From: Spirochaeta africana DSM 8902
GTDB lineage: Bacteria > Spirochaetota > Spirochaetia > DSM-27196 > DSM-8902
Length of the DNA: 64,000 nucleotides
Assembly (NCBI RefSeq): GCF_000242595.2
Contig: NC_017098.1
Location: forward strand, 2,046,001 to 2,110,000
Direction of reading: 5' to 3'
This document shows, piece after piece, positions 1-57,324 of the stretch. How positions within the stretch are numbered: position 1 is the stretch's first letter; each line of letters opens with the position of its first letter. Made by a program: the position numbers and the translations under genes. The notes beneath the pieces are model-generated. The model saw only the letters and a program-made list of their open reading frames with translations. It was not told the DNA's origin and searched no databases.

Positions 1-2340
1 ATAAGCTGGAGCCCTGGCGGCACGCGCCCGGCAATGTGGGTAACAGTTACCGTATCGACTCCCCCGGTTGTTTGAATCCTGGCACGGTATCCTGCCCCGA
101 CCATGCCCTGTGGAAGCTCTCTGTCAAGAAGCTCGATCGCGGCACGCACCTCGATGGCTCCATAGAGCTGGCTATACACCGCGGCATTGCTGCTGTGCAC
201 CTGAATCCTGAAAGGGATCAACTGACCGGGCGCAGTCCCGGCCGGCACCGTTACGCCAAGCTGCAGGGCAGCATTCGGCACAGCTTCGGCGGGGGTGATC
301 GTAAGTTCGATGCCGGTCGGATTGGCGGCAGTGGCTGCGTCGGGAGCGCGTGTGGTCGTGCCAGGTGTGGCGCTGGCTTGCGACTGTGCGGTCTGCGGCA
401 GCTCGGCCTCTTCCGGCGCGGTCTGCAGCAGTTCTGCCCGCAGCTGTACCGGCTCGGCATAGCCTGTCAGCAGGTAGCGCGTCTCGCTGCTGCCACCGGC
501 AGCCACCTGGATGCGTTCCGGGCCCCTGAGTTGCAGGCCTCGGGTACGGATATCTATCCAGGGGCCCGGGACATGGCGGCCGTCCTGCGTCAGCAGCGCC
601 AGGCGACCGGGTGCAGTCGCGGTTGTTGTTTGCACCTCGATGCGGTGCTCGCAGTGGTGCTGGACAGGGTGCGGGTGGTCTGCTATGTGCAGGGTCTGGA
701 TGGTGTTCAGGCCGTGGCCGTAGATAGTAATTATCTGCCCGGGGTACACACTGTCGGGTTCCACCGCCTGTATAACCGGCAGAATCGGCGCATCGTTATT
801 GTCCGCATCGTCATCATCCTGATCCTCATCCCCGAGGATCGTCAACGGCAGCGACACGGCATCGGCTGCTGGTTTGGACACCAGAAGAAAGTACCGACCG
901 GGGACTGCCGACGGCGCCACCGGCAACTCGATGCGGGTTACCTTACCGGGAGCAAGCTCGGTCGCCACCGGATCAGTAAGCGGTACGTCTGTATCCTGCA
1001 GTACGATACTGACCGGTGCCATAGCGGTGTAGCCATGTCGGTCTTCTGCCCGGATATGAAGCACTGCCGTCCCCCCGGGGCGAGCATACAGATGGTTTGC
1101 CAGCAGCTGCAGATGATAATCAGGTCGATTGATCGCGACAGGGATCGCGGCAGAAACCCCCTGGCGGTTGCGTGCCCGCACCTCAAGCTGACCGGCAGAA
1201 ATTCCTGTGGGGATTTCAATCACCCGCTGCTGCTGATCCCCCGAGAGGATCGCCAGCTCATAGTGGTCCCCGCGGCTATCGGTCGCAACAATCTGCAGGG
1301 CTCCGCTCAGACCGGAGCCATACAGGGTTAGCCGGGAGGGCAGCTCTCCGGTCAGTTCGGTCGGGTCACACCCGTACAGCAGCGGCTGCGGATCGTGCAC
1401 AACGATCTCCAGATGCTCCACCACGCAGCGATCAACAGCATCATGATTCTCTACCCTGATCCCCAGTCGATAGATGCCGGGCAGTACATCCAGCCCTGCC
1501 TGCAGTACCAGCTCGACCGGGATCGTGTTGCCAGCCAGCATCCGGGCAGATGACAGATGGCCATTCAGCCCGGGGGTGGCAACAGCACACTGCACCGGAC
1601 CATCAACAGCGTCCAGACAGTCTTCGAGCCCGAGTATCCTGATCCCCCAGCTGCGGACATCGCCTTTGCCAGCAACAATCGGCAGCGGCAGGGAGATGCG
1701 CTCCCCTGCCGCAAGCATTACCACATCGGGTAATGCCAGCACAGGAGCCGCCTGACCACCGGTTTCAACACCGAGCACGGTATCGGTAAAAAGAAATCTT
1801 CCTGGTTCCGCTGCAGATATACTGTACGGGGCTATCCCGAAACGCAGCGGAACCCCAGCGGGAAATCCTCCCAGAGTGATCATCTGCAGATGTCCCAGGT
1901 CGATTTCACGAGGGACTGCCCCGGGGCGTCCGTAACGCAGCAGATATCCCGCCGTGCGCAGTTGATCTGCATGCCGGAAATGCAGGGTAACCGAGCCATT
2001 ACGGTTATCCACCACCATAAACTGCTCGACCGCTGCCAAGGTTTCGGCAGGCGGTGATGTAACCGTAACCCTGTCCGGAAAGACCCGACGACGTTCCGGG
2101 AGATCAGAGGCTGCAAACCCGACTGCCACCGACCAGACACCGGTTGGCAGCTGCTCGTGCGGCACCTCCAGCCGGAAGGAACCGCTGCCTACAGGTGAGG
2201 AGGCAATTACTCTGCCTGCCGTTGCATGCTCATTCTCGAGCAGATACAAGGTTACCTCTCCGGGGCGATCTACCGAACCCTCAGCCGACAGAATACTGCC
2301 ATGCTCGAGTACCCTCAGCCTGAGCTGCGGTAGTGTGGCA
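1..2340 (-). other. C-terminal array of FN3-, IPT/TIG- and He_PIG-like domains of the giant protein
   Basis: The order toward the C-terminus is: an Ig/FN3-like pair (about 2340-1780); an IPT/TIG-like module (DPTELTGELPSRLTLYGSGL, about 1370-1290); an Ig-like module; a second IPT/TIG-like module (VEPDSVYPGQIITIYGHGL, about 765-700) preceded by an acidic DEDQDDDDADNND linker that could bind Ca2+; a linker rich in Ala and Thr; and the He_PIG-like Ig domain at the window edge. These domains are typical of bacterial surface or adhesive proteins. Confidence 0.55.
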
Positions 2341-5300
2341 ACGGTATAGGCCTCGATTGCGTATCCCAGCGGATCCTGGAGATTTTCAACCTCCACCTGC
2401 CAGTTACCCGGTTCAGGTGCATGCACGATCAGGGCAGCACCCCAGTCATCATAGATCATCTCGACTGCAGGATGTCCCTCCTGCAGTCGCTCGCCACCGG
2501 GTGAAATTGCGCGTATAACCGGATTTCCTGCCGGATACGCCACCAGAAAAACGATCCGATCGAGCGGTGGTGACACGTCATTTCCGGTTGCGCTGTTCGC
2601 CAACGGCATCATCCCGGAGAATCTACCGGGCACACCTGAGCTGTGGCGCGGCAGCGACACCTGCGATGCGGCGACTGGTGGCGGCCGGTAGAGCTCATAC
2701 CGACTGACATTTCCCAGGGTGAACCTGCCGCGGCGATCGACAAACACCCCTGTCTCGCCCAGCAGCGGTACATCGGCATAGCCGCGAATTCCCTCGGCAC
2801 CATTGGTAAACATGCCTACCTCAGCGCCAACCTGAGCAAGCCAGATATTACTGCCGGGGATCCGCACCCGTACACCAAGAATGGTTTTGTCCAGCAACAG
2901 CCCGCGACGCAACCCGAACTGGACCCTCCCGGCACCGCTGGCGCGAACGACGCCCTGGTGGGTGTACACAAACACCTCTACCATCCCCCGTACATACACC
3001 AGTTCAACAATTACCGACCCGTAAAAACCATGCCCGGTCAGTGCCGCCAGAAGCTCTCCACGCACCAGACCACGCAGTACCGCTGCCTCGCCCTGCACCG
3101 CGATTCCCCAGTTGGTGATATCGATCCAGGTACTGACCGATGCATCTATCAGGTAGCCGCCGGTCTGATCAACCATCGATATGCCAGCCTCGATTCGGGT
3201 ACCGCTGTCAAACAGATACTGAACCGGTCCCGGCAGTTCGTCCGGAACCCCATAGGCCAATCCACCGCGCAGCCGGTTTAGGTACATCCCGGAATTCGCG
3301 ATCGGCAGGCCAAGGCCGAACACCTCGTAGGAGAAGAAGGCACGCTGCAGACCCCAGGGGTACATACTGCAGCGATCGACAAAAACGACCTGCGCCGCAA
3401 ACGCCCCGATACCCGGTACCACAGCCTCACCGCTGCCAGCTATCCGCATCTGACCGTCGTCCAGCATCAGCTCGACCATTACCTCGCGAAAACCCAGGCC
3501 ACCGCCGATGGAAAACTCCGGCAAGGCCAGCAAGCCGCCACTGTAGCCTACCCCTTCCGGAGAAATCCGGAAGCCGTACACCTCGAAACGTGCACCCCCC
3601 AGCAACGCAGGCAGTTCAATGCCGGCCGACCGAAACCCGATCAGCCGGTCAGCGGGATTCAAGCGAGGCTGGTCAAAATAGATCCGGAATCCGGCCATAT
3701 CAAAGCCGATACTCTGTACCTGTGCCTCACCGTAGAACTCTCCCGCTGCGGTAATACCGGCATTGCGCAGCTCCAGGCGACCGCGCTCAAACGGTTGTGG
3801 CAGTTCAAGCAGCAAACGCCGGATACTGATGCCATCGGCGTGAAAGGCAAGATCATGCAGTTCCGCAGAAAAACCGCCAACCTCGGCAAAGAGATGTGAC
3901 AGCCCCCCGCACACCGCCAGCAGCTGCCCATCCCAGGAAATATGCAGCTCATCCAGCACCACCGAGCCGATATCCAGGGGAAAATCAGGGGCAAAATGCA
4001 GCAGCCCGGCAGTATGCAGACCGTCACTCCCGATACGCAGGCTGGTTATCTCCGCTTCGACCCCGGCAAACAACGGCACACGCAGGCTCTCCGCAAGTGC
4101 CAGGTGGCATTCAAGCAGGCCCTTTTGACTGGACAGCAGAAAGCTTTCGATCTGCAGTGATCTGCCACCCAGCTCTCCCGGCAGGTGCGATGGCAGCAGA
4201 ATCAATCCCTCGAGGTCAGCAAGAAGTTCGCCTGAATGTATACCCGAACAGGCGGAAAATCCGATCCGGGCTTCAGACAGGCGCACACCGCCAAACAGCA
4301 CGGTTTCCGGGATATCGGCACCAGCGCGGAGTTCCCGAATCACCCCGCGGGAATCAATCTGAAATGATTCGATTTCGGCAGTAAACTCCGGTAGTCCGCT
4401 CCCGATTGATCCCGGCAGGATCAGCATGCCGGTAATGCCGAATACCGGCTGCCGTTCATCGTCAAGGATTGCTTCCAGCAGGAAATCCTGAATCTGCCAT
4501 TTCCCCAGTCCCTGCAGTGGCCAGGCAGCCGAACAGTCCAATGACTGCAGGTTACCACGCACATCGAAGGTCATGTCGGCAAGCTGAAGCTCCATCCCGC
4601 GCAGTCCATCGGGAAAGCTGTTTCCCAGCGCAGCCGCTCCCGAAACCTGCAGCTGTGGATCAGGCGCACCGAACAGACGGGCTGTCCCATGATGCAGTTC
4701 AATCCCGCCAGCCAGGATAGCACCCGGCTCAAGCTGCAGTTCGGCCTGCAGCGCCAGCAGACCCGCAGCGGAATATCGCAATTCCTGTAGCTCAAGCCTG
4801 GCGGAGGCAAGTGAGCCGGGAAACTCAGCCGGCAGGACTGCCATCCCGGCGACAGACAGCTCAGGTGAACCAGGATTTGCTTCCGTCACTGACAGTTCAA
4901 GCGAAGCCTGCTCCAGAGAAAGTGGCGGATACCCAAGCTGCAGATGCGGCATCTCGGCCAGTGCACGCAACCTGCGCAGCTGCCCATCGGACGGGGTCAG
5001 CATAAAATCCTGCAGATCGAGCCTGATCCCGGCGTCAGGGAATGGTGAGGAAAGCCGCAGTTCCCCCGCCCCTGTAAGCTGAACGGTCTCCCCCTGCAAA
5101 GCCACGCCAAGCCGGCCCTGCTGCAGATGGACACCGTTTCCCAATACTCCCGTAAGCCCGACAGCCTCGCCATGGAGTGCATGTAAATTCCCGACAGCAT
5201 CTACCCGGAGATAGTGAAGATCAAGAATTACATCCTGTAGCACCGGTGGCAGGGATTCATGGCCAAGCTGCAGATATCCCGAGAACCCGGCGGTACCATC

Positions 5301-8300
5301 GGCCTCGAACACCAGTTCGCGCAGCACCAGTTCCAGCCCGTGCTCACGGATCCGGAAGTCATGCAGGGCGATGCTGTCCATCTCCGGCTTTCCGGTGACC
5401 AGATCCAGCTGCAGCCCCTGCAGCACCACCCGCGGCGGACGCCAGCCACGCCCGATCAGTCCAGCCGGAAAGAGCAGCTGCACCAGCTCCGCATGGAGTA
5501 CCGGAGCAGTATCCTGATCAGACCGAAAGCGAATACCAAGATCATGGGTATACACCCGCCAATCTCCCCACACCGAAAAAACACTGCGGCCAGCAAGACA
5601 GGCATCGAGCGATTTCAGCTCGCCATCAAGACCGAGCTTCAGTTCATGCAGGTAGGCAGCACGACCAGCAAGTCCTGTGGGCAAGGACTGCGCCAGACGC
5701 AGGTGTCCCTGCAGGATGAGTTCATTATCGTGCACCGCAATCTTTTCCGGATATACCCTGCAGCCCAATAATTCAAACGACGCCCCGGGTTCAGGATGCA
5801 TCATGAAGCTTCCATCAAACCCGATACGTACATGACGAGCCGCGAGCTGTTGTCCCGAGAGCGCGCCCCCGGACGCCATCACCATCCGGTCAGCCTCCAG
5901 TCCGGCACCACTCAACCGCAGTCGCTGGATCACCAAACGGCCACCTCCCGGGAGGGCGACCTCAATCTCCGGAATAACCGCCGGGCTGCTGAGCCGTCCG
6001 TCAGGATGGAATATGGCGGGCGCAAATTCCAGCTCTATCCCGTTTAACAACCCGAGCCTCACGCGTATCCAGGCGGTCAGCCCTTGATTGGTCAAACCGG
6101 CTGCAACCAGCTCCACCTCATTGCCGCCCAGGGAAACGCCCTGCCCGAGATATCGCAGCTGTCCATCACTCTCCCCGGAGTCCAGCAGTACCGGAAAGGC
6201 CGGCAGCGCTACCCTGAGGTCGGCAAGGGGAATGACCACATCGGTTGCATGAAACAGAATGCGATCCTGTAGCAGCTCGACTGCATGCACCGTAACCGGG
6301 ATCCCCCCGTAGTGGAACTGCGGCTGCTCATCCGGGAACAGCAGATGCTGACTGGTCAGCACGCCCTGTGAAGTAAGAATCATGCTGTCCTGCGGCATCT
6401 CGAGCCTCCCAGACCCAAGACTCTGCGGCAGGCGCACCCTGCCGCTAAACAGGAATCCCAGTTCAGGATCTACCGACACACCCTGAACCTCCATCCGATA
6501 ACCGTTGCGCGAGATTAACCGCAGTCGGGGATCAACACTGCCCCGCCCCTGCAGTCGGGTTATTCGCAGCAAGGGAGCATACCCGCCACCGCTCGCGGAC
6601 AACAGCGGCGGTTGTTCAGCTAGACCGGGCTTCGCAGCCAGAACGGTCTGGGTAGGTGGTTGGGCAGATGGCTGGGCATCGGCCATCTGCTCCAGAAACA
6701 CTACCAGCTCGGGGATCACCAGGCAGGCCTCAGTGCCGGGATATTCTGCCAACGAATCAAGATAAACGACCAGATCGGTCAGGGTCAGCTTCGAATTACC
6801 CAGATCCACCGTGCCCACGGCAACCGGATACCCGTGCAGCAGCAGACTGCTTTCGGGCGTGCCCAGATGCAGTGAGGGGCCTGGCCGAGCTGCGAGAAAG
6901 CTCAACGTACCGGCAAACGGATCCGGAAGACTCAGGGTCACACGGCCCTGAACACCATCGCACCACAGTAGGGCCTGCTCCAGCATCAGTTCATGGCCAG
7001 CCATCAGCACCGGGATGTCCCCGGAAAGCATTCCAGGTTCCAGCATGCGCTTGGCGAAAAACAGCGGACCGGCAGTTGCCGCAAGCTCGGCCTGTGCGAA
7101 TACAGCACTGCCATCAGCCGCATAGCCTGCCGGAAATACCGCCAGACCACCCCGCAGCTGCAGTTGACCATCCTCCAGCTGCCAGCCATATGGATACAGA
7201 ATCGTGTCCCCCAACACCAGCGTTGCGTAAGGACCGACAGCGGTTACCGGCTGCATCCTGCCACCGGGTTCAACCGGTATCATATGAAAGATTACCGCTT
7301 CGGCCTCTGGCAACGGCCAGACCTCAGCTCGGCTGATCTGCAGCCCATACTGATCCAGCACCAGACCGCGGCACGCGAGGATACGTTGCCCATGCTGATC
7401 ATAGAGGGAAAAAACCGTGTCAGCCGCTGCGGGGGCGAGAATCGCTCCGGTAAACAGACATAATTCAAGGCCCCGCATGGGTATCGATCCAGTCGGGAAC
7501 CCGGGAGGAAGCCCCTGCAGTTCTGCCTTCCCTGCCATGAGTACCGGACTGTCACCATGGTATCCGACCGAAATATCCAGCAGATCCAGGGGAAATCCAT
7601 GCAGCTGCATACGCAACGGAGCAGCCTGTATCCCATCAGTTCCCCAGTCTATACCGTCATCGGTTAATCGCACCCCGGTCAGGAGCACCTCTGGAACGCC
7701 ATCACCCTCTGTGGAGAACGACAGCCGTACCGTATCACTCAACAGCCGCCCCTGCTCCAGTCGAAAATCATCCAGATACACTGCGCCGCCGTCCGCATCG
7801 TAGACTGCAACCGGCTCCAGATAAAAACCCTGTGCCCCACGCCACTGTCCGTCAATCGTGAATTCCGCGTTGCGGAACTCCGGTGTACGGGGCACCCATC
7901 CCTCGGGCAGCCTGAGATTACCGCGATACACCCGAAGCCGGTCTGACTGCAGCTCGACCTCACACAGTGCGTAGCGAACCCCCTCCATGACTACATACGG
8001 GGATTCATCCGCGGCAATCCAGCCACGATCCAGGTATGGTCCTGTCATGACCAGGCTATTATCGCCACCTGGAGGGTTCAGCAGAATACGCGGTACCGAC
8101 AGATTCATCGGCTGCAGCGCCGCCAGCTCGCTGTGCAGCTGGCTTGTGCCGCCCATAGCAACTGCATCACCCTCCAGCACCAGCCATCCGGGGGTGCCGA
8201 TCAGCCATCCCGGTCTGCCGTCGATTTGTGACAGCCTTAACCCGGTGTTGTCGCGGCTGCCGGGGACGCCAACGCTGCCGGGGCTCCCGGCCCCGTCGGG

Positions 8301-11300
8301 GCCGCCGAACCCTGCCGCCCAGGGATACCCCGGCATATCCGGCTCCAGCCGGGCAGACCGGGCAAAGCGTAGTGTCGGAGCGGTGGTCACCCACACGTCC
8401 CGAAAAACTGCGGTGCGGTCGTCCGGCCCGAGAATCACCTGTGCTGTGTCCAGCAAAAGTCCCCGATCCGGCTGCACGGTAATCCCGTGCGCCAGGACAT
8501 CCCAACTGCCTACCCGGATCAGCACCGGCTGCCGGGTATACCTCGCCATTACCGGCTCGGTCTGTCCAGTATTTAATTGAACCGAATCCAGCGCCAGCAG
8601 TCCCAACGGTCGGCCGTCCGGATACCGCGGCTTGCATGCAGCCGGCAGCCGCAGCATCGCCTCTTCCAGAACCTGCTGCTGTTCATCGTATATCCCCTGG
8701 ATCAGCACCCCGTCGCGCTCCCAGCGCCAGGGCACCCGCAAGGCGGTCAGCGGCGTTGCTCCTGTTCCGAAGCGTTGGGTGATCTCCCGGGCATTACCAG
8801 CCCGATCACGCAGCTGCAAGCGCAACTCATAGACACGGCCCTCTGTCAGCCCCGCGATACGCAGCCCCGGCCGATCATCAGCGCCTGTCGCGCCGGGTGG
8901 GCTTGTCTGGCCAGCCACGGCAGTCTGATCCCACTCACCGCTTCCGCTCATCAAATCCCAACTGCGTGGCGTAGGGTGCAGCACACCGTCGCGGGCGGCA
9001 TACAGACGCAGTTGCAGCGATTCCAGCCCTGAGGCCCGCTGCAGCTGCGCAGCGCCATCTGCCGTAAGGTGCCACCGCCCGGAGCAGTTTCCCGCTGCAC
9101 CATCAGGTGAATCCAGGCATTCACCATCCGCAGTCGCTGTTCCGCCCGGGGCAGCGGTATCCTCGACAGCCGTGCTGCGCAGTCTTTGCAGCGACATCCA
9201 GGCATCCGCCAGCAGTTCGGGATTATCCTGGAGCCAGGTGTCGGATACATCAGGCAGGATCAGCCTGACAGCAGACTCAGCACTCAGCAGCTCGATCTCC
9301 AGTCCGCCCGACTGACCTGCAGGCACGCCTACTTGCTGCCCGTCCGACTGGCCTGCAGGCACGCCAAATGGCAGCCCGTCTGGATGACTTTCCGGCAGTC
9401 CATTCGGCTGCCCGACGGTCTGCCCGTCCGTGCCTGTCCCGAATACAAGCTGCGGTCGGGAGCGATCAATCAGCAGCTCCCGCCAGGCAGCGCTGCGGTT
9501 ACCGGCATAATCCTCGGCCACCACCACGGCAGTGAATACCCCGAACCTGTCGGATTCCGGCTGATGATCCTCCAGCTGAACAGACAGGTGCATCCAGTCG
9601 CCGACTGGCGGAACGGCATACCACTGCCCATCCGGTCGTACCGGTAAGGCCTCGGCTACCGCCGGGAGGGTGCCGGTCTCTGCGGGGAGGGCTTCAGCAA
9701 GGCACACCGCCGCAAGCTGCTCTGGATCCAGTACGAAATCCATCGCCGGCCCGGCACAATCGATGCGTACATAATACCTACCCACCCCGGCTGCGTCGGC
9801 CGGGCGATTCCAGGAAAGATCGATCACCGGGCAGTTCTCCCACCGCCCGGCTTCACCATGACTGCGCGAAAACAGCACCAGCCCCTCGGGGGGTGAGGTG
9901 TCCACCACAAACCGATAGCGAGCCGGGGGGCCAACCAGCCCGTTGCGGCCAACAGCCCTCACCTGCAGGCGGTAATGTTCGCCTGCCAGGCTGTCCGGCA
10001 GATCATACAGGGTCAACTGTGCAGTGCCATCTTCCGCATCAATCGACGCGCCGCGGATTTCCTCAATCGCTGTAAAGCCCCCGCTGGAGGCCACCCCTCG
10101 CTCCAGCTGATATAGAAAACCCACCGGCAGGCTCACACTCCCTGAATTACCGAAGCCCTCTCTGCCGGGATACAGATCAAACCACCCGTTGCTGAATGGC
10201 ACAGCAACCTCAGCGCGCATCCCCTCGGGAAACACACTACTGCTGACATGCGGAACAAGCGGCAGCCCGCCGTCAACCAGAATCACCCGCTCATGGACAG
10301 GCCCCGCTACACCGGCAGCATCCACTGTACGCAGCTGGATCAGCCACTCCCCATCTCCCGGAAACTCCAGTTCGAAGGTTAGCGGGGTATCTGCAGCCAC
10401 ACCCGCAGCTGCCGGATGCCACTGCCACTGCAGTGTATCCATGGCCTGCCCGTGCGCCGCCCATCGATACTGCAGGCCGAGCAGGGACAGAACAGCAGCG
10501 CCCCCCTGTGGATATTCCGGGACTCGCGGTTCACCCCACCCCTCAGGATCAACCACAAGCAGCACCCGGTTCGCCATCGCGGCTCCAAAGTCCGCGGGAA
10601 TCTCGGCTCCGTCCTGCCCGAACAACCTGACCCCGGCAATACTCCCCGATTTCCCGCCGTACAGCACCACCCTCTGCAACTCACCGCGGTTTCCGGCGTG
10701 GTCATACGTATACACGACCAGCGGCACCTCTGTGCCGACCGCCAGCAAGTCCGCCCCGTCTGACAGCGCCTGTTCGGGTATCGCAGCAAACCGCCAGGCG
10801 GCAGCCTCGGGCAGCAGCATCCGCAGGGGCGACCACACGTCTTCCCCGGGAGTGATCAATGGATATCGGCCATCCCCGATTTGTACACCGGATGTTTCGG
10901 CCAGACCCGAGATTGCATCGCTGGCTTCAAATTGTGTTACCCAGACTCCCCCAGCCGCGTGGTCGTACCAGGGATACACCTCTGCACACAGCTGCGGCGG
11001 ACTGCGGTCTATCCGGATTACGCTCACCGCCTGCGCTGCAGCCCCAGCTCTACTTCGCACCTGCATGGAAATCTCGTACACACCGTCCGGATAGAGATCG
11101 AGGTCGAGTAATCCCCCGACTGGCTCCCCGGCAGTTTCGCTGTCGCTCAACCAGGCAGTCCAGCTCTCGGGATCGACACCTGAAAGCCCGGGGATAGCAC
11201 ACCCGCGCAACACAACGCCGTAATCTCGTATCCAGGCATGCTCTGCCAACAGGAAACCGGCGGCATTCCGCAGCTCCAGGGTGAGGTCCGGAGCTTCTCG

Positions 11301-13928
11301 ATCTATCCGGAACAGGCGGTGGGCGAGGCTGGTGTTCCCCGCCTGATCGACAGCCGAGACGACCAGCAGATATATCCCGGATGCCGACTGCTGCAGTTCT
11401 GCACCGGATGCAGTGCTGCCGGCGGCTATCGGCTGCCACAGCTCCGATGCCGGGAGCCCGTCTGCCAGCTGCACCTCCGGAGAACCCGCGGGCTCACCCT
11501 CGGCACCTTCGTGCTGCAGGCGATACCAGGTATATCGCAGATCGGCAATCCCGGACTCGTCATCAACAGCCAGTACCCGGCAGCGTGCCGGATCAGGCTG
11601 CCAGTCTGGCCCGGTATCCGACAGCAGCTCCAGCCGCGGTGGTGTGCGATCTATCCGGAGCGGAATATTCAGCCAAGCAGTATTGCCCAGGGTATCGTAC
11701 AGCCGAATCTGCAGCTCATGCAGGCCGGTCTCAAGCTCCTCCGGCAGCCCGGTGCTCAGCAGCCCGTCAGCCAGTTCGGCAGACAGCAGGGTTCCCCGGT
11801 AACGAACCTCTACCCCGGCGACCCCGCTGCCGGCATCCGCAACCCGGAAGCGGAGGTGGCGACCATCGCTCCAGTCCAGAGCCGAGGCCGGATCCACATA
11901 CCCCAACGTCGGCGGTGTGGTGTCGATTGCGAATGGTCGATACCCGACGCTGTCCCAGGATGCCTGAGACCAGTTGCCTGCCCGGTCCTGTACCCGAAAG
12001 CCGACCCGGTAGCTGCCATCCTCCAGCGCATCGGTCTCGAGCTCGAGCCACAGCCCGCTGCCTTCGGCAACCACGTCCCCGGCAGCGCCGACTACCCGCC
12101 ACTGTGCGGTATCGGGGGCGACCCCCGATGCGGCATCGCTGAACTCAGCGTGAAACTCGATCATCCCCTGCAGGTAGACCACCTCCGCCAGCCTGCCACT
12201 GCGGTTGCCTGCCTCATACCATATGTGTTCAAGGACCGGTCCGATCGTGTCGCGATACAGATATACCGTCTGTTCCTGGCGATTGCCGGCATTATCCCGC
12301 ACCTGCACTACGGCCTCGGTAACCCCCTCACGCAGAACCCGCAGTATCGGCTGCTCGTCGCCAAATCGCCGCCAGTCGCTATCATCGCTACGCCAGCGCC
12401 AGGAGCCCGGGTCTACACCGCTGCCAGGGTCCCTACCCGGAAGCACCGGATCCTCTGCCAGCCATGTAATCGCCAGCCCCTCGCTGCAGCTGTTCCAAGG
12501 AGCCTCCGCTGCTGCCATCGGCTCCAGACTGAACCCATCACCGTGCATGGTATCCTTATCATACCCGGCGATACCCAGCATGGGTGGATCGTAATCTATC
12601 CCCACCAGGATCATCACCTCACTACTGTTGCCGACCCGATCATGGGCTACACAGCGTAATTCATGGCGCCCCGGCCGGGTTACCCGAACCATGGGGTCTG
12701 AGGCGAGCAGCTCATCGCCAAGCATCCAGGCAACACTGTCGAGTCCGGACTGGTTATCCTCGACATCCGCAGTCAGCTCCGGGGGGGTATGAAACCAGCG
12801 AATTTCCCGGGGTTCAGTCCAGGGCAGGGTTATCACCGGGGGTTGATCATCAATACGGAAGAATCCGGCCTTTTCATGGCGATTACCGGCAGCATCCTCC
12901 ACCTGCATGGCTACCAGGAAATCGCCGCCCTCGGTCAGCCGCAGCTCATACTCACCCTCACGATCCGAGATCGCGGCCACCGCCTCGCTGTAGCCTCCCG
13001 CTGCATCACGTCGAAACACCCGCAGATACCACGCCATCACCCCGGATGCATAGCCGTCCCGAGGCGGATCCTGCGGATCAAGCCGCAGCAGATAGCCGGA
13101 TTCCGGCAACGGCAGCCAGGGCGAATACTCATCATCCGACAGGAACGGTACCGTGCCGGTATATCCCAGAACCGGGTCGAGGGTATCTACCGCAAAGCTC
13201 AACTCCAGTTCGCTGCGATTGGATACGCGATCGGTTGCGGTAAACACCACATGGTAGCTGCCATCTGCAAGCGGACCGGTGTCTTCGCCGCTGCTGTCGT
13301 GCAGCAGTTGCCGGTTGCCGTCTTCATCAACCCGGTAAATGCGATGACGCACCTCTGCCAGCCCGGACAATCCGTCCGCAGCAGCAACCCGCAACCGCAC
13401 CGGATACGCCAACACGGCACCATTGTGGGGAACCTGCCCCACCCAGTTGAGCTGTGGCGGGGTGTTGTCGCGTACAAAAGAAAAGGAGATGGTACCCAGG
13501 CGTTCACGGTTGCGTTTCAGCAGTCGATCACGCCAGCCTGAAACTGTAATGGTGTGACGATCGTGCCTCAGGGTGCGGGTACGATTGATCGCGGTATTCC
13601 CGCTGGTGTTGCTACGGTTGGCAAACCGCGAGCGGCTGCGCCCGTCCGGTTCATCATAGGCCTCTATATAATAGTTGGTACCGGCCCAGTTATGCTCGGT
13701 TTTCCGGGCCCGGATGGCGAGCTCCTCGCCACGAAAATACAGGGTACTGCCCTGTACATGCCGTCGCGAGGCAGGGTGATCTACCTGGATGGCGTACCAC
13801 AGATCTCCACTGCTGTGCTGGCGACTGGTGAGGGTTGTCCAGCCGGACAATGGCAGAGCACATACAAAAAGGGTGAGAAGCAGAGGCGGGAACACGGGCA
13901 ACCCGAGCCCGCCGGTTCTCCGGGGCAT
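1..13928 (-). CDS. Giant exported multidomain protein, at least 4,642 aa (3' end outside window)
   Basis: Reading the minus strand in the frame whose codons occupy plus-strand triplets beginning at multiples of 3, I find no stop from 13928 to the left edge, so the gene is truncated by the window. The start is ATG 13928 (or GTG 13931), sharing a base with the stop of the upstream gene (TGATG), with GAGG 8-11 bases upstream. The N-terminus (MPRRTGG, then PLLLTLFVCALPLSG) looks like a signal peptide. Next come about twelve Ig-like repeats (residues about 150-1500) with DxxPP boundaries and DxAGN cores; a repetitive beta-strand region (about 1740-3530); a Gly-rich cap (about 3450-3650); and C-terminal beta domains including two IPT/TIG-like modules and, at the edge, a He_PIG-like Ig domain (LPQGMVGAGY, then GRVPPGLQL). 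No catalytic motif is seen. A cell-surface or periplasmic role is inference. The conflicting plus-strand frames over this region are shadows. Confidence 0.9.
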   Translation of the reverse strand, partial: MPRRTGGLGLPVFPPLLLTLFVCALPLSGWTTLTSRQHSSGDLWYAIQVDHPASRRHVQGSTLYFRGEELAIRARKTEHNWAGTNYYIEAYDEPDGRSRSRFANRSNTSGNTAINRTRTLRHDRHTITVSGWRDRLLKRNRERLGTISFSFVRDNTPPQLNWVGQVPHNGAVLAYPVRLRVAAADGLSGLAEVRHRIYRVDEDGNRQLLHDSSGEDTGPLADGSYHVVFTATDRVSNRSELELSFAVDTLDPVLGYTGTVPFLSDDEYSPWLPLPESGYLLRLDPQDPPRDGYASGVMAWYLRVFRRDAAGGYSEAVAAISDREGEYELRLTEGGDFLVAMQVEDAAGNRHEKAGFFRIDDQPPVITLPWTEPREIRWFHTPPELTADVEDNQSGLDSVAWMLGDELLASDPMVRVTRPGRHELRCVAHDRVGNSSEVMILVGIDYDPPMLGIAGYDKDTMHGDGFSLEPMAAAEAPWNSCSEGLAITWLAEDPVLPGRDPGSGVDPGSWRWRSDDSDWRRFGDEQPILRVLREGVTEAVVQVRDNAGNRQEQTVYLYRDTIGPVLEHIWYEAGNRSGRLAEVVYLQGMIEFHAEFSDAASGVAPDTAQWRVVGAAGDVVAEGSGLWLELETDALEDGSYRVGFRVQDRAGNWSQASWDSVGYRPFAIDTTPPTLGYVDPASALDWSDGRHLRFRVADAGSGVAGVEVRYRGTLLSAELADGLLSTGLPEELETGLHELQIRLYDTLGNTAWLNIPLRIDRTPPRLELLSDTGPDWQPDPARCRVLAVDDESGIADLRYTWYRLQHEGAEGEPAGSPEVQLADGLPASELWQPIAAGSTASGAELQQSASGIYLLVVSAVDQAGNTSLAHRLFRIDREAPDLTLELRNAAGFLLAEHAWIRDYGVVLRGCAIPGLSGVDPESWTAWLSDSETAGEPVGGLLDLDLYPDGVYEISMQVRSRAGAAAQAVSVIRIDRSPPQLCAEVYPWYDHAAGGVWVTQFEASDAISGLAETSGVQIGDGRYPLITPGEDVWSPLRMLLPEAAAWRFAAIPEQALSDGADLLAVGTEVPLVVYTYDHAGNRGELQRVVLYGGKSGSIAGVRLFGQDGAEIPADFGAAMANRVLLVVDPEGWGEPRVPEYPQGGAAVLSLLGLQYRWAAHGQAMDTLQWQWHPAAAGVAADTPLTFELEFPGDGEWLIQLRTVDAAGVAGPVHERVILVDGGLPLVPHVSSSVFPEGMRAEVAVPFSNGWFDLYPGREGFGNSGSVSLPVGFLYQLERGVASSGGFTAIEEIRGASIDAEDGTAQLTLYDLPDSLAGEHYRLQVRAVGRNGLVGPPARYRFVVDTSPPEGLVLFSRSHGEAGRWENCPVIDLSWNRPADAAGVGRYYVRIDCAGPAMDFVLDPEQLAAVCLAEALPAETGTLPAVAEALPVRPDGQWYAVPPVGDWMHLSVQLEDHQPESDRFGVFTAVVVAEDYAGNRSAAWRELLIDRSRPQLVFGTGTDGQTVGQPNGLPESHPDGLPFGVPAGQSDGQQVGVPAGQSGGLEIELLSAESAVRLILPDVSDTWLQDNPELLADAWMSLQRLRSTAVEDTAAPGGTATADGECLDSPDGAAGNCSGRWHLTADGAAQLQRASGLESLQLRLYAARDGVLHPTPRSWDLMSGSGEWDQTAVAGQTSPPGATGADDRPGLRIAGLTEGRVYELRLQLRDRAGNAREITQRFGTGATPLTALRVPWRWERDGVLIQGIYDEQQQVLEEAMLRLPAACKPRYPDGRPLGLLALDSVQLNTGQTEPVMARYTRQPVLIRVGSWDVLAHGITVQPDRGLLLDTAQVILGPDDRTAVFRDVWVTTAPTLRFARSARLEPDMPGYPWAAGFGGPDGAGSPGSVGVPGSRDNTGLRLSQIDGRPGWLIGTPGWLVLEGDAVAMGGTSQLHSELAALQPMNLSVPRILLNPPGGDNSLVMTGPYLDRGWIAADESPYVVMEGVRYALCEVELQSDRLRVYRGNLRLPEGWVPRTPEFRNAEFTIDGQWRGAQGFYLEPVAVYDADGGAVYLDDFRLEQGRLLSDTVRLSFSTEGDGVPEVLLTGVRLTDDGIDWGTDGIQAAPLRMQLHGFPLDLLDISVGYHGDSPVLMAGKAELQGLPPGFPTGSIPMRGLELCLFTGAILAPAAADTVFSLYDQHGQRILACRGLVLDQYGLQISRAEVWPLPEAEAVIFHMIPVEPGGRMQPVTAVGPYATLVLGDTILYPYGWQLEDGQLQLRGGLAVFPAGYAADGSAVFAQAELAATAGPLFFAKRMLEPGMLSGDIPVLMAGHELMLEQALLWCDGVQGRVTLSLPDPFAGTLSFLAARPGPSLHLGTPESSLLLHGYPVAVGTVDLGNSKLTLTDLVVYLDSLAEYPGTEACLVIPELVVFLEQMADAQPSAQPPTQTVLAAKPGLAEQPPLLSASGGGYAPLLRITRLQGRGSVDPRLRLISRNGYRMEVQGVSVDPELGFLFSGRVRLPQSLGSGRLEMPQDSMILTSQGVLTSQHLLFPDEQPQFHYGGIPVTVHAVELLQDRILFHATDVVIPLADLRVALPAFPVLLDSGESDGQLRYLGQGVSLGGNEVELVAAGLTNQGLTAWIRVRLGLLNGIELEFAPAIFHPDGRLSSPAVIPEIEVALPGGGRLVIQRLRLSGAGLEADRMVMASGGALSGQQLAARHVRIGFDGSFMMHPEPGASFELLGCRVYPEKIAVHDNELILQGHLRLAQSLPTGLAGRAAYLHELKLGLDGELKSLDACLAGRSVFSVWGDWRVYTHDLGIRFRSDQDTAPVLHAELVQLLFPAGLIGRGWRPPRVVLQGLQLDLVTGKPEMDSIALHDFRIREHGLELVLRELVFEADGTAGFSGYLQLGHESLPPVLQDVILDLHYLRVDAVGNLHALHGEAVGLTGVLGNGVHLQQGRLGVALQGETVQLTGAGELRLSSPFPDAGIRLDLQDFMLTPSDGQLRRLRALAEMPHLQLGYPPLSLEQASLELSVTEANPGSPELSVAGMAVLPAEFPGSLASARLELQELRYSAAGLLALQAELQLEPGAILAGGIELHHGTARLFGAPDPQLQVSGAAALGNSFPDGLRGMELQLADMTFDVRGNLQSLDCSAAWPLQGLGKWQIQDFLLEAILDDERQPVFGITGMLILPGSIGSGLPEFTAEIESFQIDSRGVIRELRAGADIPETVLFGGVRLSEARIGFSACSGIHSGELLADLEGLILLPSHLPGELGGRSLQIESFLLSSQKGLLECHLALAESLRVPLFAGVEAEITSLRIGSDGLHTAGLLHFAPDFPLDIGSVVLDELHISWDGQLLAVCGGLSHLFAEVGGFSAELHDLAFHADGISIRRLLLELPQPFERGRLELRNAGITAAGEFYGEAQVQSIGFDMAGFRIYFDQPRLNPADRLIGFRSAGIELPALLGGARFEVYGFRISPEGVGYSGGLLALPEFSIGGGLGFREVMVELMLDDGQMRIAGSGEAVVPGIGAFAAQVVFVDRCSMYPWGLQRAFFSYEVFGLGLPIANSGMYLNRLRGGLAYGVPDELPGPVQYLFDSGTRIEAGISMVDQTGGYLIDASVSTWIDITNWGIAVQGEAAVLRGLVRGELLAALTGHGFYGSVIVELVYVRGMVEVFVYTHQGVVRASGAGRVQFGLRRGLLLDKTILGVRVRIPGSNIWLAQVGAEVGMFTNGAEGIRGYADVPLLGETGVFVDRRGRFTLGNVSRYELYRPPPVAASQVSLPRHSSGVPGRFSGMMPLANSATGNDVSPPLDRIVFLVAYPAGNPVIRAISPGGERLQEGHPAVEMIYDDWGAALIVHAPEPGNWQVEVENLQDPLGYAIEAYTVATLPQLRLRVLEHGSILSAEGSVDRPGEVTLYLLENEHATAGRVIASSPVGSGSFRLEVPHEQLPTGVWSVAVGFAASDLPERRRVFPDRVTVTSPPAETLAAVEQFMVVDNRNGSVTLHFRHADQLRTAGYLLRYGRPGAVPREIDLGHLQMITLGGFPAGVPLRFGIAPYSISAAEPGRFLFTDTVLGVETGGQAAPVLALPDVVMLAAGERISLPLPIVAGKGDVRSWGIRILGLEDCLDAVDGPVQCAVATPGLNGHLSSARMLAGNTIPVELVLQAGLDVLPGIYRLGIRVENHDAVDRCVVEHLEIVVHDPQPLLYGCDPTELTGELPSRLTLYGSGLSGALQIVATDSRGDHYELAILSGDQQQRVIEIPTGISAGQLEVRARNRQGVSAAIPVAINRPDYHLQLLANHLYARPGGTAVLHIRAEDRHGYTAMAPVSIVLQDTDVPLTDPVATELAPGKVTRIELPVAPSAVPGRYFLLVSKPAADAVSLPLTILGDEDQDDDDADNNDAPILPVIQAVEPDSVYPGQIITIYGHGLNTIQTLHIADHPHPVQHHCEHRIEVQTTTATAPGRLALLTQDGRHVPGPWIDIRTRGLQLRGPERIQVAAGGSSETRYLLTGYAEPVQLRAELLQTAPEEAELPQTAQSQASATPGTTTRAPDAATAANPTGIELTITPAEAVPNAALQLGVTVPAGTAPGQLIPFRIQVHSSNAAVYSQLYGAIEVRAAIELLDRELPQGMVGAGYRARIQTTGGVDTVTVTHIAGRVPPGLQL
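2340..3500 (-). other. Gly-rich cap and PPC-like domain of the giant protein
   Basis: Downstream of the beta-repeat region the protein reads NSGMYLNRLRGGLAYG, then VVRASGAGRVQFGLRRG, FTNGAEGIRGYADV and LLGETGVFVDRRG (about 3450-2740). This is a less repetitive, glycine- and aromatic-rich stretch that could be the closing domain of the beta region. After a short linker comes a module with AISPGGERL, MIYDDWGAALIV and PEPGNWQVEVENLQ (about 2590-2400), whose NWxVxVxN pattern resembles pre-peptidase C-terminal (PPC) beta domains. The family assignment is tentative. Confidence 0.45.
3500..8700 (-). repeat. Repetitive beta-strand region of the giant protein with about 70-residue period
   Basis: Roughly 1,700 residues of alternating hydrophobic and polar residues, with a recurring motif of the form L-x-x-L-x-(L/I/F)-x-x-x-G-x-(L/I), often preceded by LP and a Gly-Ser turn. 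Examples are LHELKLGLDGEL (near 5640), LRELVFEADG (5315), LHYLRVDAVGNL (5215), LQDFMLTPSDGQL (5005), LQELRYSAAGLL (4790), LADMTFDVRGNL (4575), IESFQIDSRGVI (4380), IESFLLSSQKGLL (4155), ITSLRIGSDG (4045), LDELHISWDGQL (3955) and LHDLAFHADG (3855). Between 5215 and 4155 the spacing is near 210 bases, about 70 residues. I do not recognise the family. Confidence 0.7.
9303..9432 (-). repeat. 36-bp tandem repeat, about 3.5 copies, coding for a Gly/Pro/Gln linker
   Basis: Units start near 9303, 9339, 9375 and 9411. The first two share CTGCAGGCACGCC and the later ones are diverged. In the giant protein they encode 12-residue units of the type GVPAGQSDGQQV between the last Ig-like repeat and the next domain. 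Because the period is a multiple of three, copy-number change would keep the frame. Confidence 0.7.
9450..13475 (-). repeat. Array of about 12 Ig-like repeats inside the giant protein
   Basis: Each unit ends in a D-x-x-P-P type junction followed by a hydrophobic strand. Junctions read near 13465 (RDNTPPQL), 13185 (VDTLDP), 12850 (IDDQPP), 12595 (IDYDPP), 12250 (RDTIGP), 11920 (IDTTPP), 11655 (IDRTPP), 11305 (IDREAP), 11010 (IDRSPP), 10275 (VDGGLP), 9900 (VDTSPP) and 9465 (IDRSRP). Most units contain a VxDxAGN-like turn, as in bacterial Ig-like or cadherin-like surface repeats. Unit length varies from about 85 to 245 residues. The coordinates of individual units are approximate. Confidence 0.75.
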
Positions 13929-15367
13929 CACGGCATTACCCTCACGCGATACAGCTGGTGGGCATCCTGGAAATACCTGTCTCCATGATCCCCCCCAACA
14001 ACAGTGAGATCCAGCCGTGCCGCAGCCAACCACAGTGGTTCGGCCGCCGGCGCAAACCCTTCATCATCCAGCAGCAGCTGTCTGTCCGCATCCACCAGCC
14101 AGACCCGGCCCTCACGGCTATGATACCCCATGGCGGACGGGGAGCTGTACAGGGGCAGCCAGTCCGCATTGAACATCAGCACCTGCAGATTGTTCGGCCC
14201 CTCCAGGAGCAGCAGACCATCCGGGGTAAACCGGACAGCGACCCCATCCCCGACTGGGAAATGCGTCGGCGACGTATCAGGAAAATACACACCGCTGCTG
14301 CTGACTTCCTGACAAATCAACAGAACCTGCTCGGAACAGTAGTGCAGCATCGCGACACCATAGGGTGTGGGAACGGCGCCAAGAAATCCCTGGTCAGGCA
14401 AGGCAACCGGCAGCCGCTGCCAGCCGCTGCAGTCCTGCTTCCAGCCAGACAGCCGCTCGCCGTCGCCGCTCCACAGCACCGGCACATCGGGATTTCCGGC
14501 ATATCCGTACCCCGACATCTGCCATCTACTCATGCTGCTGTCCGGCAGCATAATCGCCGCGGCTCCCCCATCAGAACCCACAACTATATCAACCAGCCCA
14601 TGACTGCCGGCAACCAGAACCCCAACCTGCCAGGCGGCAGATTCCTCATCATCTGTCAGGGGATGATACAGCTGAAGCCAGGGCTGCTGCTCGCTCACCC
14701 CTGTCGGCAGGTACACCGTCCAGGATGTCACGGTTCGCAGATCAACTCCCCCACCCAGTTCGATCCACCGGATACCGGCGCTGCCCGTTTCCGTACGACA
14801 CAGAGCGATCGCCGTCAGGCCGTAATCCCCATGAAAATGCAGCTGGTAATCGGCCTGTCTCTGACCATCACCATGCGGCTGCAGCCCGGTCATCACCTGC
14901 CGCAGCACCATTGGTTTGTCAGTACCGGCACTACCCAGCTGCCGGTACTCGATCGAACCTGCCCAGAGGTTTCTGGTTTGATCTGCCCCGGCAGCGGTAC
15001 ACAGCACCAGCCACTGCCCCGACCCGACGGCCTGCAGCGAAAGCCGGGCGGCAGCGCCTGGCGGAACCGGCTCGTCCCCCCATTCCACCACTACCTCCTG
15101 CCACTCCAGGCGATCATTCTGCAATGCCGCCTGCAGATTACCATCTGGCAACGTTTGCAGCAGCAGCCTGCTGCCCGGTGTTTCCAGCACCACTCGTTCA
15201 ACTGCAGCTGCAAGATTCCCCGGCAGAGGAACCGGATCAAAAACATACCTGCCGTATGAGGTCACCGTCAGGCTGCAGATACACCCCAGGCACGCTGCCA
15301 ACAGCAGCCGTCGATTCCACCACAGCACTGGGCTCAGGCCAGTCCAGAAAAATACGGCAGTATTCAT
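13928..15367 (-). CDS. Exported protein of unknown function, partner of the giant protein
   Basis: The protein is 479 aa from ATG 15367, which has a strong GGAGG about five bases upstream; an in-frame GTG at 15379 lies inside that site and is less likely. An N-terminal hydrophobic segment (LLLAACLGCICSLTVTS, about residues 20-37) is a signal peptide or anchor. The remainder is all-beta looking, with repeated W-x-L/V and G-x-G-x turns (PVLWSGDG, VWLVDADRQLLLDD). This would fit a beta-propeller or lectin-like fold, but no family is recognised. Its stop overlaps the start of the giant gene by one base, so the two are almost certainly co-translated and probably act together. Confidence 0.85.
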   Translation of the reverse strand: MNTAVFFWTGLSPVLWWNRRLLLAACLGCICSLTVTSYGRYVFDPVPLPGNLAAAVERVVLETPGSRLLLQTLPDGNLQAALQNDRLEWQEVVVEWGDEPVPPGAAARLSLQAVGSGQWLVLCTAAGADQTRNLWAGSIEYRQLGSAGTDKPMVLRQVMTGLQPHGDGQRQADYQLHFHGDYGLTAIALCRTETGSAGIRWIELGGGVDLRTVTSWTVYLPTGVSEQQPWLQLYHPLTDDEESAAWQVGVLVAGSHGLVDIVVGSDGGAAAIMLPDSSMSRWQMSGYGYAGNPDVPVLWSGDGERLSGWKQDCSGWQRLPVALPDQGFLGAVPTPYGVAMLHYCSEQVLLICQEVSSSGVYFPDTSPTHFPVGDGVAVRFTPDGLLLLEGPNNLQVLMFNADWLPLYSSPSAMGYHSREGRVWLVDADRQLLLDDEGFAPAAEPLWLAAARLDLTVVGGDHGDRYFQDAHQLYRVRVMP

Positions 15368-15485
15368 ACCCCCTCCCACAAGCTACTACCGATTATTCCG
15401 TGGTAAATCTTCAACTCGACATGCATCATATGGAGGTTTTCCGGGAATTCTGGTAGACTCCAAGGCAATCGCTCAAGGAGTCTGT

Positions 15486-24325: not shown

Positions 24326-24336
24326 TCGATTACTCC

Positions 24337-51431: not shown

Positions 51432-51520
51432 TCTCCGGCACACAGGAACTTTCTTACAGTTTTTCCCTGTTTCCTGAATAATCACCGCCGAATAACCGGT
51501 AGTACATGGTGGAGGGAGTA

Positions 51521-52024
51521 ATGATCCATCGTGTACAGATCCTGCTGACGCCGCTTATTTCGCCGCTGCTGATGTTTGTACTGCTTTCAGGCTGCGCCAC
51601 TGGCCACTCATCTCCCGACATCCTGCACGGAATTGTGTTCAGCAGCGGCGGTCAGGCCCTGTTCGGCGCAGAGGTTCGGGTAACAGACAGGCGCGGCGAA
51701 CATCACCAGGCTCGCGCGGACATTCACGGGAGGTTCCGGATCAGCGGCATCATGACAGGACCTGTAGTGGTCACGGTGCTGCACCAGACCCATGAGCCCC
51801 TGCAGCAGGAGGTCATGGTTGCCGATCGGACCCAGGTGCTCTATCTGCGGCTTACCAGCTGGCGGCATCTGCTGGAGGCCTGGCAGGCAAGCCTGGAGCA
51901 GCAGGACATCAGCCATGCCGAAACCCTGCTGATCCGGCTGCACACTGCCGGCTGTCCGGCGCCGATATTTCGTCATGCCGAGCATATTCAGCAGCTGTAC
52001 CGCAAGCAGACAGGTCACCCGTGA
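51521..52024 (+). CDS. Lipoprotein at the head of the type II secretion operon
   Basis: The protein is 167 aa from ATG 51521, with GGAGGG upstream. The signal sequence ends MFVLLSGCATG, a strong lipobox. The mature part begins with a transthyretin-like/carboxypeptidase-regulatory-type beta sandwich (GIVFSSGGQALFGAEVRVTDRRGEHHQARADIHGRFRISGI) followed by a C-terminal helical tail (RHLLEAWQASLEQQDISHAETLLIRL). The stop overlaps the secretin start. Position and lipid anchor make it a candidate pilotin or secretin partner, but no known pilotin family is recognised. Confidence 0.82.
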   Translation: MIHRVQILLTPLISPLLMFVLLSGCATGHSSPDILHGIVFSSGGQALFGAEVRVTDRRGEHHQARADIHGRFRISGIMTGPVVVTVLHQTHEPLQQEVMVADRTQVLYLRLTSWRHLLEAWQASLEQQDISHAETLLIRLHTAGCPAPIFRHAEHIQQLYRKQTGHP

Positions 52025-54231
52025 TGCAACGCACCCCCCATCGCCATCAGGTATGGATCACCGCCCTCCTGCTGTCAGCCATCCCGCCTTGTTTATCCCT
52101 GTCCGGGCAGCAGATTGCATACATGGAGTTTGTTGACCAACCCGTTACCGACATCCTGCTGGCTGCGGCGATCACTGCTGGCATATCGATTATCCCTGAT
52201 GGCACCGTCAGTGGGAGAGCAACACACTACTTTACCGGAACCGATATACGGCAGGCCCTGGAGGGTTTTCTGCGCAGTAATCATCTGTACATGCAGCAGA
52301 TAGACGGTATCTATCATGTATCCCGAATCTACTGCAGCTATGATCCCCTCCGGCAGCTGATAAGTATCAAGGCATATCAAAGCCCCGCCGGATACGTCCT
52401 GCAGCGCATATCTACCGAGATCGGGATAACCATAATCCACGATCTCGATACAGAGAAACTGTTGAGCATCCAGGCAGAGAATATCACACCGCAGCGAGGC
52501 ATCGCCCTGCTGGAGCGCCTGCTGCCGCACCACCGGGTGACCCTGCAGCCGGACTGTCTGGTCATTGCGGCACACGACACCCCTGAATCAATAGGAGCAT
52601 CGCCCACCGTCCCCATGGTGGAGTTTGACCCCGAAACAGGCTATCACCTGCGCGCTGAGCGCACTGACAGCCGCAGCCTGCTCACCGAAATTCTGCAGCA
52701 ACAGGGGCTGCAGCCGGTATTCATGAACCAGCGCGATGTACCATTGCAGGATCTGCTGTTGTTCGGACAGGATCTGGATACCCTGCTGGATCTGGTACTG
52801 TATCAGGCAGGGCTGGATGTCTTCCGTCGGGATCTGATTGCGTATGTAGTGGATATCCCCCAGCGGGAGATCCGCAAACAGCTGCGCGAACATCGAGTCC
52901 TGACCCTGCAGCATCTTCAGGTTCAGGACCTGCCGTCGCTGTTCCCCCAGGATCTGGCGGCAACTACTCAGTACCGGCTGGATCGACAGCGCAACAGCAT
53001 AATCCTGAGCGGTACCCCGCTCGAGATTGACCCGGTAGAGGGCTTTATCCGGAGAATCGATATCCCGCCGTCATCCTTTCCACCAGTCAGAATCGAGCTC
53101 CAGCACATTGAAGCGCCCACCGTGAAGGAATTCCTCTCCCGGCAGTTGCCAGGACTGCAGTATACTGTCCTGCCCGATAGAACCGCGCTCCTGCTGCATG
53201 GATGTCCGGATATGATCGCCGATGCCCACGCGCTGATCAGCATGACCGATCAGCCGCGTACTGCCACTGCGGTGGAACTGCAGTATATCCACCTCGGCAA
53301 CCTGCTGGATCAGCTTCCGGACGGGTTTCAGGCAACCGAGTTTTCCGGACATCGCGAATCATCCACACTGGTGTTCCACGGCAGCAAGGGCCGACTGGCA
53401 CGACTGCAGGAGTATCTCGCACTGATCGACACCCCGGCACCACAGATCAGGTATCAGCTGCTGGTCATCCAGTATCAACACGGTGAATCGCTGCAGCTTG
53501 ACCTTGAGCATGACCTGCTGACCGACCCGGGGGACACCAGCAAGCCAATGCTGTCAAGCCTGTTCGGGAGTCTGTTGAGTCTGAACTTTGACATCGTTAC
53601 CCATCTCGGACTGCAGTTTGCAACCAGGTTGAGCGCCGCGATCAAGGACAACACTGCGCGAATCTTTGTTGACACCACCCTGAACGGGTTGTCGGGTGAG
53701 CAGATACGTTTTCAGAACACCGACACCTATCGATATCGCGACAGCGAGATAGACCCGGATACCGGACAGCCCCGTGTTGCCGGGGTAACCCGGGAGATAA
53801 CCGCTGGATTGATTCTGCAGATCCGTGGCCGGGTGTCGGGCAGTGACATGGTTACCATGGAGGTAGATGCTACCATCAGCAAACGTGGACTGGACACCCG
53901 CCAGGGTGATCCGCCCCCAACCAGTGAACGGATCGTCCAGACCCAGGTCCGCACACCTTCAGGTACCCCGGTAATTATCAGTGGCCTGGTACAACAGGAC
54001 ACCAGCCGCCAGTCAGGCGGAATCCCGTACCTGCGCCGGATACCGCTGCTGGGACGGCTGTTTGGCAGCCTGCGTGCCGCCAGCGAGGACAGCGAACTGA
54101 TAATCTATCTGATACCGTTTATACAAACCGAATCTGACAGTGATTACCCCCGCCTGATCCAACAGATGTCAGACAGGCTGCTTGCAGACCATCTGCAGCG
54201 TACCGAATTCCCACAGGAGGCTGTGCCATGA
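52024..54231 (+). CDS. gspD: Type II secretion secretin (GspD-like)
   Basis: The protein is 735 aa from ATG 52024 (GTG 52021 also in frame), overlapping the lipoprotein stop. Signal peptide (VWITALLLSAIPPCLSLSG), an N0/STN-type domain (YMEFVDQPVTDILLAAAITAGISI), several N-domain repeats to about residue 450, then the secretin barrel with FVDTTLNGLSGEQIRFQ, TEREI-like VTREITAGLILQI, VIISGLVQQDT and the closing IPYLRRIPLLGRLFGS motif. It forms the outer-membrane pore. A first-round secretin alternative such as type IV pilus PilQ is disfavoured by the gspG-like pseudopilin in the operon. Confidence 0.92.
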   Translation: MQRTPHRHQVWITALLLSAIPPCLSLSGQQIAYMEFVDQPVTDILLAAAITAGISIIPDGTVSGRATHYFTGTDIRQALEGFLRSNHLYMQQIDGIYHVSRIYCSYDPLRQLISIKAYQSPAGYVLQRISTEIGITIIHDLDTEKLLSIQAENITPQRGIALLERLLPHHRVTLQPDCLVIAAHDTPESIGASPTVPMVEFDPETGYHLRAERTDSRSLLTEILQQQGLQPVFMNQRDVPLQDLLLFGQDLDTLLDLVLYQAGLDVFRRDLIAYVVDIPQREIRKQLREHRVLTLQHLQVQDLPSLFPQDLAATTQYRLDRQRNSIILSGTPLEIDPVEGFIRRIDIPPSSFPPVRIELQHIEAPTVKEFLSRQLPGLQYTVLPDRTALLLHGCPDMIADAHALISMTDQPRTATAVELQYIHLGNLLDQLPDGFQATEFSGHRESSTLVFHGSKGRLARLQEYLALIDTPAPQIRYQLLVIQYQHGESLQLDLEHDLLTDPGDTSKPMLSSLFGSLLSLNFDIVTHLGLQFATRLSAAIKDNTARIFVDTTLNGLSGEQIRFQNTDTYRYRDSEIDPDTGQPRVAGVTREITAGLILQIRGRVSGSDMVTMEVDATISKRGLDTRQGDPPPTSERIVQTQVRTPSGTPVIISGLVQQDTSRQSGGIPYLRRIPLLGRLFGSLRAASEDSELIIYLIPFIQTESDSDYPRLIQQMSDRLLADHLQRTEFPQEAVP

Positions 54232-56932: not shown

Positions 56933-57324
56933 GTACGCCACTGATTCGCAGGGGATGTCGGGGATTCACCTTTATAGAAACCATTATCGTAATCGGTATC
57001 ATCCTCGTGCTTACCGGTTCAGTCGGGTTCACCGCCATCGGTTTCCTTGACCGGGCCAGGCTTGCCGCAGCCAGAAGTCAGATAGAGATCTATTCGGCCG
57101 CGCTGCAGGCCTATTACCTGGATACCGGACGCCTGCCGACAGCCGAACAGGGGCTGCACGCCCTCTGGGAATATCCCTACCTGGAACCGCGACCGACAGG
57201 CTGGATGGGTCCGTATCTGGACCGCCCGGCAGGTCCCGATCCATGGGGAGAACCCTATCGCTATCAGGTACCCGGCCCGGACGGCAGACCATTCGCGGTT
57301 TCCTCAACCGGGGTGCAGCCATGA
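56929..57324 (+). CDS. gspG: Major pseudopilin (GspG-like)
   Basis: The protein is 131 aa. Prepilin cleavage motif RG-FTFIE (E+5 present) followed by the hydrophobic helix TIIVIGIILVLTGSVGFTAIGF. GspG marks are YYLDTGRLPTAEQGLHALWEYP and GPYLDRPAGPDPWGEPYRYQVPG. The C-terminus stops at FAVSSTGVQP, shorter than usual, lacking the ADG loop that often binds calcium. Confidence 0.92.
   Translation: MSTPLIRRGCRGFTFIETIIVIGIILVLTGSVGFTAIGFLDRARLAAARSQIEIYSAALQAYYLDTGRLPTAEQGLHALWEYPYLEPRPTGWMGPYLDRPAGPDPWGEPYRYQVPGPDGRPFAVSSTGVQP

Follow-up and report, generated by a model that had tools for sequence, protein, structure and literature searches.

A giant exported protein of spirochaetes and its genomic tie to type II secretion

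We identified, in the complete genome of Spirochaeta africana DSM 8902, a real exported protein of 5,760 codons (619.7 kDa, ~620 kDa; pI 5.0) that represents an undescribed spirochaete family, and the new observation here is that this giant family is tied to the type II secretion system (T2SS). The window, that is, the whole stretch of 64,000 nucleotides analysed (C1:2046001-2110000 of a 3,285,855 bp, or 3.29 Mb, genome), contains the first 4,642 codons of the giant gene as well as a T2SS cluster (Table 1). A preliminary description of the window was correct in recognising an exported modular giant and missed the T2SS gene linkage in the same window. Our literature search found no described spirochaete giant/T2SS family. 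On balance, we lean slightly towards the view that the giant is a Sec-exported modular fibre and a client of the single T2SS of this organism, which would take it across the outer membrane.

The minus-strand frame has no stop between 14060 and the left edge of the window, and reading on into the complete genome located the stop ~3.35 kb past that edge, confirming the frame of more than 13.9 kb and at least 4,642 codons noted previously and giving its true length. The preferred start codon, ATG 13928, lies in a GTGATG that overlaps the TGA of the upstream open reading frame (ORF). In pairwise alignments, relatives run colinear with the giant for as many as 4,100 residues (22-26% identity), and because their own frames are likewise unbroken and about as long, the frame is not a chance one, as had been claimed; a frameshift artefact is likewise ruled out by the intact relatives. 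Antisense ORFs of up to 473 aa beneath the giant gene are taken as composition artefacts.

Table 1. Features of the giant operon and of the T2SS cluster; positions are those of the window unless stated otherwise.
Feature	Position	Strand	Basis or remark
Giant exported protein, codons 1-4642 of 5,760	1..13928	-	frame read on into complete genome
N-terminal signal peptide region, aa 1-35, without lipobox	13824..13928	-	MPRRTGGLGLPVFPPLLLTLFVCALPLSGW
Bacterial Ig-like array (Big_13 and relatives), aa ~150-1710	8799..13481	-	Pfam and motifs
Beta-meander, aa ~1800-3520, without Pfam match	3369..8531	-	AlphaFold2 and Pfam searches
Most conserved core of the family, aa ~3300-3740	2709..4031	-	100-residue blocks reach up to 45% identity with relatives
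Small beta module, aa ~3790-3880, position inferred	2289..2561	-	weak Hemicentin-GBD-like Pfam matches
IPT/TIG domain, aa ~4384-4438	615..779	-	Pfam 22.5 bits, cut-off 20.9
He_PIG domain, aa ~4610-4681, crosses window edge	1..101	-	Pfam 26.7 bits, cut-off 24
Exported protein upstream of the giant, listed at 483 aa, ATG probably 15367	13928..15379	-	stop overlaps start of giant
Downstream partner, 946 aa	L003:11812-14649, outside window	-	C-terminal Cys/His motif pair resembling NlpC/P60
Small lipoprotein with carboxypeptidase-regulatory-like stretch	51506..52024	+	similar-looking ones in G443 and G373 T2SS neighbourhoods, by eye
GspD secretin	52021..54231	+	only Secretin-family match of the genome
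GspE ATPase	54228..55730	+	TIGR02533 best, 3e-144, below full-length cut-off
GspF, start approximate	55682..56932	+	TIGR02120 best, 2e-54, below cut-off
GspG major pseudopilin	56929..57324	+	TIGR01710 94.1 bits, cut-off 88.85
Minor pseudopilin-, GspK-, GspL- and GspM-like genes	57496..60748	+	position, size and membrane anchor only
Prepilin peptidase (Peptidase_A24)	61397..61822	+	only match of the genome

From the N-terminus, the giant consists of a signal peptide, bacterial Ig domains, a beta-meander of ~1,700 residues, the conserved core, Ig/IPT/He_PIG domains, a BamB-like propeller and further Ig-like domains. The signal peptide, already pointed out in the preliminary description, is present by inspection of the N-terminus, and the relatives, by inspection too, begin with signal peptides. 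The Ig-like repeats reported there are equally well founded, with Big_13 matches at E=1.8e-26 (aa 1-900) and 4e-8 (aa 801-1900) and with D-x-x-P-P and D-x-x-G-N motifs; thus, a Big-type Ig array follows a signal peptide, as in bacterial Ig-array surface proteins. The IPT and He_PIG domains exceed their Pfam cut-offs but are not C-terminal, as had been thought, because the propeller (aa ~4690-5050) and additional Ig-like domains come after them, outside the window. Profile matches assign the propeller to the BamB/PQQ type: PQQ_2 was detected in 11 of 15 relatives (best 6.8e-12) and BamB chains were matched at 1e-12 with the family profile, while the propeller region of the giant itself, searched alone, gave no match. 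No shared C-terminal anchor or sorting motif was seen in the giants.

The middle of the protein is its most unusual part. Pfam searches of these ~2,000 residues in 18-19 family members yielded no family except a weak Hemicentin-GBD-like module, in the core segments of 4 of 19 relatives, so that the earlier remark that the combination was not recognised was fair. Conservation is maximal at aa 3501-3600, where pairwise identity averages 47%. A repeat period of ~70-71 residues is clearest at aa ~2660-3430, and the two modelled halves of the meander are homologous to each other (hhalign 99.1%, E 5e-19). The AlphaFold2 models of two segments show a continuous meander of strands ~10 residues long, with mean pLDDT of 78.6 and 73.6 and pTM of 0.43 and 0.39; therefore, the local strands are credible and the overall shape is not. 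Searches of the PDB and a viral fold search with the meander and core found no fold-level match among solved structures, and the Foldseek matches of the modelled segments (LptD, ushers, teneurin, apoB, OspA) represent local meander likeness only.

These models bear on two alternative readings. The giant could be a periplasmic or envelope-spanning T2SS partner, with the ~1,700-residue meander serving as an AsmA/TamB/LptD-like groove, given that it is linked to T2SS, that GspN of the classical T2SS is AsmA-like (PMC12802150), and that the best local Foldseek match of the core is LptD (weaker matches include apoB and, with the second segment, LPD-3 and LptA). The giant appears in the models to share with the beta-taco proteins of this kind, including GspN, a continuous antiparallel-looking meander. 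However, we regard this reading as unlikely, with some room left for it by the uncertain overall shape of the models: query-normalised TM-scores are below 0.2 (the best E-value, that of LptD, comes with a TM of ~0.15 and a model pTM of 0.43), which is local likeness only, and strand amphipathicity (1.90 vs 1.60 +/- 0.20 shuffled) does not differ significantly, so that groove amphipathicity of the beta-taco kind is not clear. Furthermore, long Ig arrays would be unusual in a lipid conduit. Profile comparison gave no sign of TamB/AsmA homology, with hhalign probabilities of 0.6% and 0.1% against TamB of the same order; there was no Pfam match either, nor a fold-level match to solved members. The other alternative, an Rhs/teneurin-like closed shell with a payload, draws on teneurins giving the best Foldseek E-values for aa 1800-2900, but appears highly improbable because the TM-score is 0.06, no Rhs/YD Pfam match exists in 18 relatives, the meander is followed by 2,000 residues of other domains, and no variable C-terminal toxin was recognised.

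The giant is the second gene of an apparent four-gene operon. The 946-aa gene downstream has a start that overlaps the stop of the giant, and the fourth gene (up to 331 aa) lies close behind; hence, a four-gene operon of exported-type proteins is likely. Genes in the same position and of the same size class as the upstream exported protein precede the giants of the relatives, and comparison of this upstream gene between genomes did not show sequence homology. In the downstream partner, D-C, P and H columns are invariant in 5 relatives; the resemblance to NlpC/P60 is one of motif only, with no Pfam match and no significant PDB profile match. This partner may help the passage or processing of the giant. 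The G035 homologue ends in a weak M23-peptidase match instead.

In total, the family comprises 19 loci in 17 genomes, with complete frames of ~4,300-6,400 codons. A search of 148 genomes drawn from the class with aa 3101-4100 of the giant recovered 6 other giant-bearing genomes, whose frames measure 2,692-6,440 codons (contig ends truncate the shorter of these), and the core profile A1 recovered giants in 9/393 genomes of a phylum draw and 3/61 of a relatives draw, counts that include this genome. A scan of ~85,000 bacterial and archaeal species genomes with a single peptide pattern returned only spirochaete records. Within Spirochaetia, the distribution is sporadic, and most same-order relatives do not have a giant. 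G349 carries two copies of the giant operon (L065/L067; C1 1481283-1496312 and 1764145-1779135), ~270 kb apart, of which only one is near gspG.

The T2SS cluster of this genome occupies 51506-61822 of the window and is separated from the giant by 43 kb, which would be expected by chance in ~3% of cases; it includes the only secretin and the only prepilin peptidase found in the genome. A GspG match was present in 15/15 giant-bearing genomes of the draws, two of them weak (G035 and G125, below cut-off). In the class draw, GspG occurred in 7/7 giant-bearing genomes (including the two weak ones) vs 39/148 overall, and in the phylum draw, above the curated cut-off, in 9/9 giant carriers vs 103/393; the corresponding hypergeometric values, 6e-5 and 4e-6, ignore phylogeny. 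Two further same-order carriers, G491 and G492, both have GspG. Conversely, 32 of the 39 GspG-bearing genomes of the class draw have no giant, and the T2SS therefore has other roles.

Among the gene neighbourhoods retrieved, five have the giant operon next to T2SS genes, with giant and gspG less than 8 kb apart: G443, G350 (~4 kb), G349 (~6 kb), G332 (~7 kb) and G373 (~7.5 kb); in G064 the distance is 14 kb. In G443, the gspG ATG lies 1 bp after the stop of the giant (TIGR01710 125 bits, above cut-off), followed by genes for a pseudopilin, GspK/L/M-like proteins, a lipoprotein and a probable prepilin peptidase, and GspE and GspF adjoin. The order and strand of T2SS and giant genes differ in G332 and G373, so the linkage survived rearrangement. 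An ordinary giant surface adhesin or fibre that reaches the surface by another route, with an incidental T2SS linkage, would accord with the common role of bacterial proteins of very large size, where these are not part of secondary metabolism, in surface attachment or recognition (PMC11573180) and with some giants being located away from gspG (in both G064 and G349 the second copy lies at a great distance from it, and the G264 giant is on another contig). This reading is rather unlikely, however, in view of linkage within 14 kb in four taxonomic families despite differing gene orders, complete co-occurrence in the draws, and the lack of any type I or type V export feature recognisable by inspection at the C-terminus of the giant. 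Between the giant operon and gspG of G349, a TIR-like gene start was noticed by eye (L066:4879-5829; G349:C1 1500879-1501829).

Because the genes of the family travel with T2SS, the giant is probably a surface or released fibre put outside by this system. The cargo for which the T2SS is known consists of folded enzymes and toxins, modest in size, and T2SS clients have no recognisable signal by which a protein could be assigned to them. The giant has a Sec/Tat signal peptide and a T2SS in the same genome. In the fibre reading, the chain of strung beta domains would be exported by Sec and then fold domain by domain in the periplasm, the pseudopilus would move it through the GspD secretin, and, outside, it would form a long flexible fibre, retained on the cell surface or set free, whose Ig, propeller and galactose-binding-like modules could bind polymers, neighbouring cells or surfaces. 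Both the T2SS dependence and the adhesive function are what we infer. The surface fibre or adhesin suggested previously is in keeping with the presence of a signal peptide, with an anatomy of all-beta modules and with the conservation of the family, but the S-layer function proposed with it has no support from any finding. A bolder proposal, for which we would put the chances somewhat below even, is that a spirochaete T2SS is devoted to exporting a multidomain all-beta fibre of ~600 kDa that is built around a fold lacking a solved relative; in a weaker variant, the meander would be a secreted lipid-carrying beta-belt.

SslE is reportedly a T2SS-exported surface protein. InvL is another (PMC12802150). 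The giant resembles both in its Sec signal, T2SS association and proposed surface or released location; unlike them, it is several times larger, its N-terminus is not of the lipoprotein type, and its T2SS dependence is proposed from gene linkage and co-occurrence. The huge surface proteins of bacteria that carry Ig/Big arrays have been surveyed (PMC11573180) and include Giant1-5 of Apilactobacillus (PMC12863079); the giant has in common with these its thousands of residues, signal peptide and extracellular-type beta modules, whereas the Pfam-less ~1,700-residue meander and core, the BamB-like propeller, the T2SS linkage and the restriction to spirochaetes in the scans made set it apart. If true, a T2SS-exported ~600 kDa fibre would be far larger than the T2SS clients known to us. 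A ~620 kDa multidomain chain tied to T2SS would put to the test how secretin and pseudopilus cope with folded domains strung together at very great length, and the conserved middle of ~2,000 residues offers structural work a new target. Experimental evidence on spirochaete T2SSs is scarce (PMC4793230, PMC6668835), and the giant family offers a candidate client and readout for them.

The giant contains 0.5% lysine and 7% arginine. Lysine amounts to 0.4-1.5% in the proteins of the giant operon (1-15379) and the T2SS (51506-60748) vs 3-7.5% in the other window proteins sampled. This depletion common to both sets speaks for the client reading, although it may only be a product of fast evolution in a GC-rich genome. 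In giants from AT-rich genomes lysine is not low, and the depletion is therefore a local trait, perhaps reflecting rapid evolution under GC pressure. Elsewhere in the window, ordinary genes were recognised by eye, namely a NeuB-type sugar-acid synthase (17415-18524, plus strand) and the pyruvate dehydrogenase complex genes (E1 alpha/beta, E2 and E3; 21525-26305, minus strand).
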